A DNA stretch of 64,000 nucleotides from Acidobacteriota bacterium (lineage in GTDB: Bacteria; Acidobacteriota; Blastocatellia; RBC074): NCBI GenBank assembly GCA_016196035.1, contig JACPYM010000125.1, positions 1-64,000 on the forward strand, written 5' to 3'. The notes beneath the pieces are model-generated. The model was not told where the DNA came from, did not search any database, and saw only the letters and a list, made by a program, of their open reading frames with translations. Both the position numbers and the translations under genes were made by a program. Below, piece by piece: positions 6,774 through 59,558 of the stretch (the first letter of the stretch is position 1; the number at the start of each line of letters is the position of its first letter).

Positions 6774-6869
6774 GGGACAGTACCGCGCGCGTGAGCAAGC
6801 GGAGATGGCGCGTTTATGCCGCTGGGCCTTGCTTGATGCGCCGCTTGCTCACGCGCGCGGTACTGTCCC
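6774..6869. repeat. Palindromic repeat, family B copy 1
   Basis: Perfect 29-bp arms at 6774-6802 and 6841-6869 share the core TACCGCGCGCGTGAGCAAGC. The 38-bp asymmetric interior resembles, in reverse orientation, the interior of the copy at 46410-46507. The rest of the gap 6672-6998 (327 bases) contains no other recognisable feature. No transposase is nearby. The two copies differ at paired arm positions in a compensatory way. Confidence 0.85.
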
Positions 6870-28408: not shown

Positions 28409-29563
28409 TTGGGACAGGCGCAACGGCTCGTCGGCGACCGGCAGGCGGCGCTTCACACATTGCGCCAGACCATTGCGCTGGGGCAGCGGCTAGGACATTA
28501 CCTGCCTACGTTGGAAGCGTTGGGGTATCTGGCATTGCTACTGTATCAACAGGGGAAATTACGCGAAGCCATCCGTTCGTGCGAGCAGGCGGCTTGCCAG
28601 TTCATGGACGCGCACGGGCATCCGCTGCCCGTCGCGGGGTTTATTTACGTCCCGCTGGGCATGCTCTATTACGAGATCAACGACCTGCCGCGCGCCGCTT
28701 ATCACCTGACGACTGGCATTGCGCTCTGTCAGCAGATGGGGACGGTGTATGCCACACTGGCCGGGCAGCGCACGCTGCTCAAATTGCACGCCGCGCAAGG
28801 CGAACTTGAGGCTGCCTGGGAAGTCCTCGCGGCGGCGCGCGAATTGGCGGAGCGTTCAGAAAATCAACGGCGCATTCGCACCGTGACGGCCATGCGCGCC
28901 GAATTGCAATTGCGGCAGGGCCACACCGCCGCCGCCGCCGCGACGCTCAGCGCATTGCCCGCCGCTGCGGCAGCGCGCTCCGAACAAGAGAATCTGACCT
29001 CTGCCCGCTTGTTACTGGCGCAGGATCAGCCCCAAGCGGCCGCCGCCCTGTTACAACAAATCGAAGGCTTCGCCCGTCAACAGGGCCGCGAGGGCAGCTT
29101 GATTGCGATTTACCTTTTGCAGACGCTGGCCCAGCAGGCGTTGCAACAGCCAGAGGCCGCACGGGCTTATTTGGAACAGGCGCTTTGCCTGGCCGCGCCC
29201 GAAGGCTACCGCCGCCCCTTTCTGGATGAGGGCACGGCCATTGTCGCGCTTCTGCCGCGCAGCCAGCACCTCGCGCCTGCGTTCGTGGCCGGGCTGCTCG
29301 AAGGGTTTTCCAAACAAGCCCACGGCACGCCAGCAGCAGTTGCTTCCGCCGCCAGGAAGCAACTGCTGCTGGAACCGCTTAGCGAAACTCAGCGCACCAT
29401 CTTGCGCCTGGTCGCCGACGGCTTATCAAACCGCAACATCGCCGCCCGCCTCGCTATTACCGAAGGCACGACCAAATGGCACTTGAACCAAATATACGGC
29501 AAGCTGAGCGTCGGCAGCCGCACGCAAGCCGTCGCGCAGGCCCGCCAACTCAACCTCATCTGA
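28409..29563 (+). CDS. MalT/LuxR-type regulator, C-terminal TPR and HTH part
   Basis: This is the continuation, in the same reading frame, of the gene at 26837. It encodes TPR-like helical repeats ([36 protein letters not shown]) and a C-terminal LuxR helix-turn-helix ([42 protein letters not shown]). The first in-frame initiation codon after the stop is TTG at 28409, with no Shine-Dalgarno, so independent translation is doubtful. If expressed alone it would be a DNA-binding fragment without its ATPase control domain. LuxR/MalT regulators are activators that oligomerise on ligand and ATP binding. Followed by the three-tier palindrome H. Confidence 0.75.
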
Positions 29564-30124
29564 CAAATGCAGAAACATGGCCAAAGAGCATGGAGTTCAG
29601 GCTTCAGCCTGTCTTGGAGAGCGCGAGCACAGGCTGAAGCCCAATGGCATTGAATTAAGCGTGACAACGAGGTGTTCAGAGTTCACGCTTCAGCGTGTCT
29701 AAGTCGAATTAACACGCTGAAGCGTGAACTCTGAACACTAATTCAATGCCATTAGGCTTCAGCCTGAACTCCATGCTCTTTGGCGTATGTCCTGAAGACT
29801 TTTCTGTTCTGACCCTAACTTTCGATAGGTGAACCCCTCCCGCCAGCTTGTTAGACTCCACTGACCGCCCGTTCAGTAAGCATCAATAAACTGCGGGTGG
29901 CGCATAAACGCAGACCTCCTGTTGACTCGATAAAACTATAACGAAGCAATCATCTTGGTTCGGGGCTAGCTGTGGGATGACATCAAGGCAGGGCAAAGAC
30001 CCTGTCTGATTATTCAAGCACCAGAATAGCAAGCACCAGATCGGGCGGGTTCAACCCGTCGCCAGATCAACTTCCAACCAGCAACTTTGGGAGCCTGTTT
30101 CGGCGTCCACAAGGAGTCAGCACC
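29564..30124. other. 561-bp intergenic region, repeat plus receptor upstream region
   Basis: The left part is palindrome H (29580-29784). The right part (about 29785-30124) is the upstream region of the Oar-like receptor. The ATG at 30125 has AAGGAG about 10 nt before it. I see no coding sequence or clear sigma-70 promoter. Confidence 0.5.
29580..29784. repeat. Three-tier nested palindrome (element H)
   Basis: Three stems nest. The outer stem is 29580-29609 with 29755-29784 (GCCAAAGAGCATGGAGTTCA core). The middle stem is 29631-29657 with 29739-29765 (AATGGCATTGAATTA core). The inner stem is 29672-29698 with 29712-29738 (GTGTTCAGAGTTCACGCTTC core, perfect 27 bp). The motifs TTCAGGCTTCAGCCTG and TTCACGCTTCAGCGTG are themselves sister palindromes. 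It starts 16 nt after the LuxR stop. The form suggests serial insertion or duplication of related palindromes. Confidence 0.9.
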
Positions 30125-33100
30125 ATGAAAATTTCCGCTCGTCGCACGCTCTTTCTGCTTTGGCTTGCAGTGATTGTTGGGGGACTGTGGTTGAGTCCCG
30201 TGACGCCGGCTTATGCCCAAAACGCCACCGGCGCGATCAACGGCATGGTTACCGATCCGAATGAAGCCGTGGTCGCGGGCGCCAAGGTCAGCGCCACGCA
30301 TCGTGCCACCGGCGCAGTACGCAAGCTCACTTCCAATACCGAGGGCGGCTTTATCTTCGAGAGCCTGATCCCCGGCGAATACGAGGTGAAGGTGGAGGCG
30401 CAGGGCTTCACTTCGCAATTGCAAGTGCTGACCGTGCAGGTTGGCGTGACGGTTTCCGGCAAATTCACGCTGACGGTGGGCGGGGCGAATCAGACCGTCG
30501 AAGTCGTGGGCGGCGGCGCGCCGATTTTGAATACTTCGGATTCCGGCTTGGGTGGGATCGTGACGCAGAAGCAGATTGAAAGCCTGCCACTCAACGGGCG
30601 CAGTTTTCTTTCGGTCGCCAGTTTGGAACCCGGCGTTTCGGTGACATATCAGGCGACTTCGGGTGTGCTCAATCAGAATGACTTTTTCCAAGTGGGCGTG
30701 GGCGGCGCGCCTTCATACATGACCACGATTTCGGTGGATGGCGCGCGCGCGAATGACCGCATCACGGGCGGCACCTCGCAAAACTTCTCGTCTGAAACGG
30801 TGCAGGAATTTCAAATCAGCACCATCGGCTTCGATCTCTCGACGGGCACAGTGTCGGCGGGTGCGGTCAACGTCATTTCACGCGGTGGCGGCAATGCCTA
30901 TCACGGCAGTTCATTTCTGTTTTTCCGCGATCACAATCTGGCGGCCTTTTCGGCGTTGAGCCGTCCCTGCACGGGCCTGGCGACGGATAGTCCGTTGTGC
31001 GCCACCAGCGCGCGCAAACGGCTCGAAGACCCCTTCTTTGTGCGGCGGCAATATGGTGGAACGTTCGGCGGGCCGGTCATCAAGAACAAGCTCTTTTTCT
31101 TTACCAACTACGAACGCAGCGATCAAGTGGGCGCGCAACAGGTCAGGTTCACCGACCCGCTGCTGTTCGGTTACAACCACGTGGCGAAGGTGCCTTTCGA
31201 TCAACATCTGATCGGCGTGCGCCTTGACTACAACGTGACGCAAAAACACACCGCCTTCATGCGCGGCAACATTGACAAGAATGACAGCATTTCGGGCGGC
31301 GGCATGGAATCGAACTGGATCGGTTCGAGCAACTATTCCTATCAAACGCAATTCGGGTTGACGAGCGTTCTCAGCCCCAGACGCGTCAACGATTTTCGCT
31401 TTGCGTATTCCTACTTTCGCAACCGGCTCTTTCCACCCTCGCAAAAAGATTGCGAGGCGCTGGCGGGCGATCCGCGTTATTGCATCGGTGTCGGCAGTAC
31501 GCTGATCTCGTTCTTTGGCGGTTTGAGCATTGGCAATAACGCTAACGTTCCGCAAGACCGCCATCCGCGCACCTACCAATTCACCGACAACGTGAGCTGG
31601 ACGCAGGGCACGCACCGCATCCGCTTCGGCGGCAACTGGGAACACATTTTCAGCGCGGGCAGTTGGAACCGGAATTTTGCCGGGACGTTTGGCGTCTTCA
31701 GCCCGACGACGATTGCGGCCTCGAATCCGACGTTGTATGCCACGCTGCCCGCCAGTTTGAAGCTGGGCTACACCGGCCCGGTGGCGACCTTCGCTGAATT
31801 GCTGCAACTGCCAATGACGGGCGCGTTGACCATTGGTATTGGCGATCCGATTCAGCCGGTCAAACAAAATTTCAACAAACTGGCGCGCAACAACCTGATT
31901 CGTTTTTACGCGCAGGATGGCTGGCAGATCAAACCGAAGCTCACGCTCAATTACGGCTTGGCCTGGTCGTGGGAAGACAACATCGTTTACCACGATTACG
32001 AGCGTTCGCCCTATCTGGTGGCACTAGGGCTGAAGTCCACCAAAGTGCCGCAGGATTTGAATAACTTTGATCCGGCTTTCGGTTTCGCCTGGGCGCTCAA
32101 CGATAAGACAGTCATGCGCGGCAGCGCCTCGCTGCACCACACGTCAGCCAACCGCAGCTATCTGAAATTGCAGGATGAAATCCTGAACGGCCCGGCGGGC
32201 ATCGGCCTGACGTCGTCCAGTTCGTCGGCGTTGGGCAATCCCAAGCTGGGCGCGGGCACAACCTGCAACCCGGCGGTGACGGGCACGTGTATCAACTTTG
32301 CGACGGTGTTGCCGACCAATCTGACCGGCGGGGAGATGCTGGCCTACCTGCCAACCTTGCGCGGCATTTTGGAAGCGCAACAGGCACGCTTTAATGGCAC
32401 GGATTTGTCCATCCGCAACATTGACGTGCGCAAACAGGCACCGACCTATTTGACCGAAGCCGTCTTTGACGAACACTTCCGCACGCCCTACACGATGCAT
32501 TTCAACGCGGGCGTGCAGCGGCAAGTCATGCACAACCTATCTGTCTCGGCGGATTTTGTGATGCGCCGGGGCGTCAAGTTCGGCGCTTACGAAGGCTATA
32601 TGGAAGACATCAACCGCTGGAACCGCTTCAGCAGTTACTCGATCACGCCCGCGACCGGCGTGGCCGCGCCCGTCCGCAATCCGGTGTTGCCCGTTTGCTC
32701 ACAGGCGCAAGCGCTCGATCCGAAGGCGCTCTGCTCGACCAACATCATCTATTACGGCAACCCCAGCATTCTCTCGCGCTACACGGCCTTGCAGGTCAAA
32801 GTGGACAAGCGATTTTCGCAAGGCTTCATGCTGACGGCGGCTTACGCCTTGCAGCGTTACACGACCTACTTGCCGCTGAATGGGGCGACGCCGAACAGCT
32901 TCAACGATTCGGCACAGAATTTCGGCCTCAGCGGCGCCAGCCCGAAACAGCAGTTTTCGTTCAGCGCCATCTGGGATTTGCCGGACACCAAGAGCAGCAA
33001 CAAACTGCTGAAGGGGGTGTTGAACAATTGGCAACTCTCGACAATTTGGCAAATGCGCAGCCGTGACATCAACACCGTGCAACTCGGCACCTTTGACACA

Positions 33101-44636: not shown

Positions 44637-45307
44637 GCGCACCCTTGCTTGACCGGGCGCGCCTGCACATCTTTACCGATTTCGACGGCACGATTACCGA
44701 ACAGGACACGCTGGTTTTTCTGGCGACACGGCTGGGTGGCGGGCCTGAAATGGTGCAGGCCATCGGGCGCTTGCTTAGAACCCACGAAATCACCCTGCGC
44801 GAAGCCATCGCCGCCGAAATGCGCAGCGTCCGCGTGCCTTATGCCGAAGCCGAAAGACTGCTACGCGCCGAAGTGCAACTCGATCCGCACTTCAAACCTT
44901 TTGCACACTGGTGCGCCGCGCAACGGTTGCCGCTGACCATCTTGAGCGCAGGCTTTTATCAAAACATCCACTTGTTTTTGTCGCGCGACGAATTCCCGCA
45001 CATAGAAATTCTGGCGAACGAGTTGCAACCCAACGAGCGCACCGGCTGGCAATGCATCTTCCGCGATAATTCGGATGACGGCCATGACAAAGCCCAGGCA
45101 TTGCGCGCCGCGCGCCAACGTGGACAATATACCGTCTTCATCGGCGACGGCCTTTCGGATCGGCGCGCCGCCGAGGCTGCCGATGAAGTCTTCGCCAAAC
45201 CTGCGCTGGCCGAACATTGCCGCGCGCAGGGCATCGCCTGTCACGAATACCAAACTTTTGCCGAAGTCTGGGCGCAGTTACGCGGCAGGTTTGAGACCGA
45301 ACGTTAA
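44633..45307 (+). CDS. HAD-family phosphatase (MtnX/phosphoserine-phosphatase-like)
   Basis: This is a 224-residue haloacid-dehalogenase phosphatase. Motif I is DFDGTIT (Asp16 nucleophile, Asp18). Motif II is within TILSAGF. Motif III/IV is 'VFIGDGLSDRRAAEAADEVFA' (in pieces). This layout resembles MtnX (methionine salvage) and phosphoserine-phosphatase-like proteins; the substrate is not determinable. It starts with a 4-base overlap on lolA, so the two are translationally coupled. Followed by the nested palindrome G. Confidence 0.88.
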   Translation: MSAPLLDRARLHIFTDFDGTITEQDTLVFLATRLGGGPEMVQAIGRLLRTHEITLREAIAAEMRSVRVPYAEAERLLRAEVQLDPHFKPFAHWCAAQRLPLTILSAGFYQNIHLFLSRDEFPHIEILANELQPNERTGWQCIFRDNSDDGHDKAQALRAARQRGQYTVFIGDGLSDRRAAEAADEVFAKPALAEHCRAQGIACHEYQTFAEVWAQLRGRFETER

Positions 45308-45310
45308 TCG

Positions 45311-45529
45311 GCCACAGAGTCACCGAGACACAGAGGAAGAACTGCTAGTTGTTTGATAACCACGAAGCAACGAAGACCGCGAAGAAGATGAGAAGAAGGA
45401 AAAGAGGCCGCTGATGATAGCTCTCCGTCCTTCTTCGCGGTCTTCGTTGCTTCGTGGTTATAAGACTTTGGCAAAGGACTTTTTCAGACCGCTTAAAAAT
45501 AAAACTCTGTGCCTCCGTGACTCTGTGGC
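45311..45529. repeat. Nested double palindrome (element G)
   Basis: Outer arms GCCACAGAGTCACCGAGACA (45311-45330, extending to 45335) pair with 45505-45529 with two mismatches. A perfect inner 30-bp palindrome (45358-45387 with 45430-45459; core ACCACGAAGCAACGAAGACC) sits inside. It begins 4 nt after the HAD gene stop and ends just before the J-domain gene. The same ACCACGAAGCAA-type arm occurs alone near 26606. Confidence 0.9.
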
Positions 45530-45548
45530 GAATTCTTGAGAGTTACGC

Positions 45549-46409: not shown

Positions 46410-46507
46410 CGGGGCGGTACCGCGCGCGTCAGCAAGCGGCGCGTCAAGCTTGCGCCATTGGCTGAACCGCTCAGGCTCCGCTTGCTGACGCGCGCGGTAC
46501 CGCCCCG
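46410..46507. repeat. Palindromic repeat, family B copy 2
   Basis: Perfect 30-bp arms at 46410-46439 and 46478-46507 (core GGTACCGCGCGCGTCAGCAA). Copy 1 at 6774 has an inverted, similar interior. Base differences between the copies are matched on both arms. Confidence 0.87.
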
Positions 46508-56367: not shown

Positions 56368-56461
56368 CGTAGGGGCAGACCTGCGTGTCTGCCCCTGTCG
56401 CGCTAGACGGAATCGAAGTCTACAAATGCCACCGGGGCAGACACACAGGTCTGCCCCTACG
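56368..56461. repeat. Palindromic repeat (element E)
   Basis: Arms 56368-56395 and 56434-56461 (28 bp, one mismatch; core GTAGGGGCAGACCTG) lie 9 nt beyond the stop codon of the BACON-repeat gene (minus strand, ending at 56470) and 137 bases upstream of the SPOR start. A single copy in this window. Similar 'TAGGGGCAGACCTG' stems are, to my recollection, seen in other environmental genomes. Confidence 0.85.
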
Positions 56462-59118: not shown

Positions 59119-59558
59119 GATCTAATTCCTCCTCCCCCGTTTTCTGTCGGGCGCGCGACCGCCGCGCGGTGCGCCGCCGGTTGGCCGGGCGGGGACGTCC
59201 GGCAACGGGGCGGAGTCTAGCCAAGTGTCCGGTGATGGCTCATGCCTGGTTTGGTGATGTTTTGGTGATGTGCCGGTGCGGCGGGGTGGGCGTCAAAGTT
59301 TTGCACAAAGGCAAGCCGGGCGGCGGCGGCGCGCGTAGCGCAACCTGCCGAGGTTGCGCGGTGTCACAGCTACGGCCCAGGCTTCACTTGCGACACCACG
59401 CAACCTCGGCAGGTTGCGCTACGCGCGCTGAACTGTTCGTTTCCGCCTGCGCAAAACTTTGACGCACACCCGGTGCGGCGCGCCAGCTTGTGCTTCCGGT
59501 CAAACGCCGTAAGATTGGCTCTGCATCATTTTCCCGCTCCCCCTGGAAGCTTGCTTCA
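59119..59558. other. 440-bp divergent intergenic region
   Basis: Between the minus-strand BACON-repeat gene and the plus-strand sigma factor. It contains the nested palindrome of family C (59286-59469). No promoter can be assigned with confidence and no gene is seen. Confidence 0.5.
59286..59469. repeat. Nested palindromic repeat, family C copy 2
   Basis: Outer arms GTGGGCGTCAAAGTTTTGC (59286-59304) with 59450-59469. Inner 35-bp arms 59331-59365 and 59392-59426 have a single mismatch (core GCGTAGCGCAACCTGCCGAG). The interior TACGGCCCAGGCTTCACTTG matches copy 1 in the same orientation. Confidence 0.88.

Follow-up and report, generated by a model that had tools for sequence, protein, structure and literature searches.

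A three-tier palindrome in a Blastocatellia genome, probably a nest of miniature mobile elements

The locus and its palindrome

The stretch of DNA analysed, hereafter the window, comprises the first 64,000 nucleotides of contig JACPYM010000125.1, from an Acidobacteriota bacterium of the class Blastocatellia whose 9.6-Mb assembly of 139 contigs is called here the home genome. Within it, a LuxR/MalT-type regulator gene, which has its stop at 29563, and a gene for an outer-membrane receptor, which starts at 30125, flank a three-tier palindrome at 29580-29784, called H, which starts about 16 bp past the stop codon of the LuxR-type gene. H is built of an outer (29580-29610/29754-29784, 94% arm match), a middle (29625-29657/29739-29771, 91%) and an inner inverted repeat (29672-29698/29712-29738, 100%). 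Folding, computed for single strands, gives an outer stem with a side hairpin that leads to coaxial middle and inner stems, with an energy of -92.3 kcal/mol versus a mean of -28.6 for shuffled sequences (z -18.8; 0 of 200 shuffles reach H). The inverted repeats and the fold bear out the three consecutive stems noted in a preliminary description, which foresaw that H would extrude as a large cruciform, and the start and end given there are the exact termini of the 82-bp outer element described below. That description also claimed two sister motifs differing by paired G/C swaps. Both are present, TTCAGGCTTCAGCCTG at 29596-29611 and TTCACGCTTCAGCGTG at 29682-29697 and, inverted, at 29713-29728; the two positions at which they differ are partners in the stem, so that the difference amounts to one swapped base pair.

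As RNA, H has a predicted folding energy of -144.8 kcal/mol (z -17.9). It was rejected as an intrinsic terminator, no GC-rich stem followed by a T run being found, and as a known RNA family, Rfam having returned microRNA hairpin models only, below the gathering score, which is an effect of the palindrome. No terminator-like or promoter-like site was found at H. A separate, perfect inverted repeat with 18-bp arms, CCAGCAGCAGTTGCTTCC, lies within the LuxR-type gene (29330-29372). The orthologous gene pair is present in the same order (67% and 62% protein identity) in G008, a genome from another genus of the same family, where H is absent and a different short inverted repeat, recognised by eye, takes its place.

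A search of the home genome with H returned three sets of matches, to query positions 1-62 plus 175-205 (outer tier), 95-157 (inner tier) and about 63-174 (middle plus inner tiers). The observation that would have spoken against the preliminary description, a lack of partial relatives and an inner stem never seen alone, was not made: partial relatives are many, and copies of the inner stem lacking the outer and middle tiers exist. About 50 sites were read, and the copy numbers given are minima among the matches listed. The corresponding elements, A (outer), C (middle) and B (inner), are located in Table 1; among the matches listed, H is the only place in the home genome where all three occur together.

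Table 1. Components of H in window coordinates
Feature	Positions	Strand	Basis or remark
Left part of A (arm, first REP, spacer, most of second REP)	29580..29641	+	62 of A's 82 bp; match to uninterrupted copies
First REP of A, GTTCAGGCTTCAGCCTG	29595..29611	+	Exact-motif search
First copy of the target duplication, GGCTGAAGCC, the hairpin of the second REP of A	29632..29641	+	10 bp immediately 5' of the MITE end
113-bp MITE, shell C with cargo B, inside A	29642..29754	+	Equal-length copies in the home genome and G008
MITE left terminal repeat, CAATGGCATTGAATTAAG	29642..29659	+	Terminal-repeat comparison
REPIN B, inner tier: two inverted REPs, variable loop between	29674..29736	+	About 40 copies read (home genome and G008), many without shell
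MITE right terminal repeat, degenerate, 3 mismatches	29737..29754	-	Comparison with left end
Second copy of the target duplication, GGCTTCAGCC, with the loop inverted compared with the first	29755..29764	+	Mismatches to the first copy: 2 if read as a direct repeat, 0 if read as an inverted one
Right end of A, TGAACTCCATGCTCTTTGGC	29765..29784	+	Joined to 29580-29641 gives the full 82-bp A
Possible right-end remnant of a G shell, GCGTATGTCCTG versus GCGTAAGTCCTA/G	29783..29794	-	Suggested by comparison with G-shell copies; overlaps A's end; left partner not clear

Two REP families and the elements built from them

When 29642-29764, which is a 113-bp element plus 10 bp, is excised from H, what remains is an 82-bp element, A, without a gap and with 77-91% identity to at least 13 uninterrupted copies in the home genome. 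All other A copies there, among the matches listed, are free of the inserted unit, C(B). Because A is restored on excision, the order of insertion reads as A first and C(B) second. A consists of two inverted REPs and is classed as REPIN-like by its architecture alone, A-type REPs having been found near no Y1_Tnp gene in the home genome, in G007, a relative within the same family, or in G008 or G009.

The B elements (63-66 bp) likewise consist of two inverted REPs and display the architecture of REPINs, namely inverted REPs, a short variable spacer and many dispersed intergenic copies. The same REPs were found beside a RAYT gene for B in G008 only, where a degenerate Y1_Tnp/RAYT gene with one in-frame stop, matching NCBIfam REP_Tyr_transpos with an E value of 5.5e-11 that falls under the curated cut-off, has a B element on either side. 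The RAYT genes of the home genome were rejected as the source of A and B since no A or B REPs lie within 1.5 kb of them. Across the class, the REPs that flank related RAYT genes have GTTYNGAGTTC or something close to it as their head, while their stems differ but are self-complementary. GAGTTC is the head in B, in A and in the RAYT-flanking REPs, and the canonical GTAG/GTGG tetranucleotide is missing at the hairpin foot; B is therefore REPIN-like but of a non-GTAG type. In 61 distinct sequences picked by head alone, 78% of the stem cells are paired, versus 57% in column shuffles (maximum 63%), which ignore relatedness, and 25 fully paired stem-loop forms are present. A transposase that recognises a conserved head plus a hairpin would be expected to leave such covariation.

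These elements share with REPIN/RAYT systems the inverted-REP hairpin unit in many intergenic copies, the compensatory stem changes and the REPs flanking a Y1 transposase gene with an NHYH motif, but differ from them in the head (GTTYNGAGTTC or GGAGTTC here, GTAG/GTGG in the canonical systems) and in that B and A of the home genome sit mostly within MITE shells (PMC3116915, PMC2817692). Tyrosine transposases with inverted repeats are already known from Acidobacteria (PMC3733652, PMC6006769). One B copy of the home genome (L019, C18:1463-1525) has arms that continue outward on both sides in a series of GTTCAGAGT-like units, giving the impression of a palindrome that has grown.

The motif GTTCANGCTTCAGCNTG occurs at least 85 times in the home genome, for the most part in inverted pairs separated by about 32-35 bp, versus 0 occurrences of the reversed control pattern. 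Most of the REP stems read CACGCT, the form of B, CAGGCT, the form of A, or CAAGCT, which represents a third type. Since CAGGCT and CACGCT represent two REP families with many copies each in the home genome, the swap is older than the nesting. On this comparison, the G/C swap separates two established REP families and is not drift inside H, where the sole swap-like change is the inverted two-base loop of the second target duplication. Of the serial insertion and compensatory drift first proposed for H, insertion has thus stood, on the separate families, the gapless restored A, the terminal repeats and the target duplications, while drift applies at the level of the REP families and not within H.

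A miniature transposon that carries a REPIN

Shell C, made of CAATGGCATTGAATTAAG and its complement, encloses B, and the resulting 113-bp C(B) unit has at least 7 copies in G008, with perfect or almost perfect terminal repeats. Since this unit is found in another genus, B travels inside C. C(B) has the attributes of a MITE: terminal inverted repeats, no gene and target duplications whose length is fixed. Of 23 copies of the MITE and its relatives, 13 are flanked by duplications of 10-11 bp that contain no more than 2 mismatches, compared with 21 of 506 cross-paired controls, and 8 of the 23 by perfect ones, compared with 2/506; a clear duplication is absent in 10 of the 23. The target sites of the family are often GC-rich hairpins (CCCTTTCAGGG, CCCCATTGGGG, GGCTTTAGCC, CGCTTTAAGCC). 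In H, GGCTGAAGCC and GGCTTCAGCC are exact reverse complements, imperfect as a direct repeat, and the two-base loop of the second copy was probably inverted later, via exchange between the palindrome arms. As judged by eye, the B loop is reversed relative to shell C in L011, L013 and L015, unlike in L009, L010, L012, L014 and H, which is a sign of palindrome-arm exchange in these three copies.

Shell C was likely moved by a transposase of the IS4-subgroup type, as its ends and duplications suggest. This subgroup has ends of the form -AATR--------WTW----, direct repeats of 10-13 bp and, in some members, strong insertion specificity (PMC2266710). The shell C ends match every conserved position of the published table, and the 10-11 bp duplications also fit; the H insert differs in being only 113 bp long and non-autonomous, with no transposase gene with C ends found (PMC2266710). 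An autonomous transposon with C ends and a DDE/YREK transposase was sought in the draft assemblies G000, G007 and G008, by looking for pairs of ends spaced as in an IS, for DDE_Tnp_1 loci and for terminal repeats, and also by scanning genome_contigs for exact matches, and none was found; most matches of the exact scan are single, lie in unrelated phyla and look like chance. Landing in palindromic GC-rich REP hairpins recalls the REP-targeting insertion sequences ISRm22, a member of the IS4 family that inserts at the axis of REP palindromes, and ISPpu9, but the inserting element here is a MITE carrying REPIN cargo, and the repeats of ISRm22 are 6 bp long versus 10-11 bp for the shell C family (PMC1525189).

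Shells and cores combine in other ways as well. In G007 a CACGTAGTAGCC core lies within a C-type shell, and in the home genome a CAATGAGG variant of that shell holds a CGACAAGC core. Inside the D shell, TTCTTGCTGTAAAT, is either B or a core of the GTAGGGGCAGACC or GTACCGCGCGCG type. The G shell, AGGACTTACGCA, has at least 77 exact ends in the home genome; of 20 copies read by eye, 19 contain a CACAGAGGCAC core and one, L287, contains A and is bordered by a 5-bp duplication, CTTGT, again seen by eye. The copies L269-L288 of the home genome represent a family of G-shell MITEs, mostly about 120-130 bp long, with the terminal inverted repeat YAGGACTTACGC and, by eye, 5-bp target duplications in several copies. 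At a G008 site (L185), C(B) lies inside a larger element with CAATGACGTTAAGTTAAG ends, itself inserted in a GGCTTTAGCC hairpin and bordered by a 10-bp duplication without mismatch.

The window contains further structures of this kind. In a second nest, at 45306-45534, an inverted repeat at 45351-45466 is enclosed by another, of CACAGAGTCACCGAGACACAGAG, which is similar to the G-shell core; a third nest, at 59284-59471, consists of GGGTGGGCGTCAAAGTTTTGCACA arms around an inverted repeat with 40-bp arms at 59329-59428. Copies of the GTACCGCGCGCG palindrome, whose family sits elsewhere in C-type and D shells (L068, L116), are present at 6774-6869 and 46410-46507, and a copy of the GTAGGGGCAGACC palindrome, elsewhere a D-shell core (L099, L107, L112), at 56368-56461. 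BIMEs and YPAL resemble H as mosaics of short palindromes, and YPAL targets span or adjoin dyad symmetry, but BIMEs are side-by-side arrays whereas in H one element lies within another with recognisable ends (PMC2817692, PMC2229807).

Origin of the nest and its meaning

H is very probably a nest of selfish miniature elements produced by successive transpositions. Element A, which is REPIN-like and was perhaps carried by a G-type MITE, would have landed about 16 bp downstream of the LuxR-type gene. The 113-bp MITE, presumably moved in trans by a DDE transposase with IS4-subgroup-like ends and already loaded with B, a REPIN of the kind moved by RAYTs (HUH tyrosine transposases), would then have entered the GC-rich hairpin of A's second REP, duplicating 10 bp; lastly, the loop of one copy of the duplication may have been flipped by palindrome-arm exchange. 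The points of this course that can be read directly from the DNA are the separate families, the restored A, the ends of the MITE, the duplications of related copies, B beside a RAYT gene in G008 and the ortholog free of H.

A role in the host, H being under selection as a transcription terminator, an mRNA stabiliser or a regulatory RNA between the LuxR-type and receptor genes, is an improbable alternative. Its position just after a stop codon, the great stability of the predicted RNA and the different short inverted repeat at the same place in G008 would suit such a role, but neither a terminator-like nor a promoter-like site was found, the Rfam matches are sub-threshold, H is missing from the ortholog and its parts are repeats dispersed at unrelated sites. 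There is no need for a host function to explain H. More doubtful still is that H formed elsewhere as a single three-tier element and arrived whole. Stable units of two tiers are known here, C(B), which moves in one piece, and G(A), with its 5-bp duplication; yet in the home genome, among the matches listed, A, C and B meet nowhere but at H, and the other A copies listed lack C(B). Growth of the palindrome at one site through template switching in replication, with no transposition at all, is hardly credible: the loops inverted between copies and the duplication copy that forms an inverted repeat, a mark of palindrome-arm exchange, would fit it, but a 113-bp unit with constant ends recurs with flank duplications at many unrelated sites in two genera.

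Read as a nest of successive insertions, H joins two kinds of miniature elements, the RAYT/REPIN kind and the DDE/MITE kind, in one mobile unit. REPINs and MITEs are known kinds; the apparent novelty lies in REPINs as cargo of MITEs, one of which lands in REP-type hairpins. No earlier description of a REPIN as MITE cargo was found in the literature searched, a limited search that does not prove novelty. The chances are about even that two routes of movement are open to REPINs in these bacteria, one through RAYTs and one inside DDE-type MITEs (shells C, D and G), whose REPIN cargo would be interchangeable and of which at least one would prefer REP-type hairpins as targets, one kind of repeat supplying targets for the other so that three- and four-tier nests build up. 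From such a nest the order of the transpositions can be read in a genome without experimental genetics.
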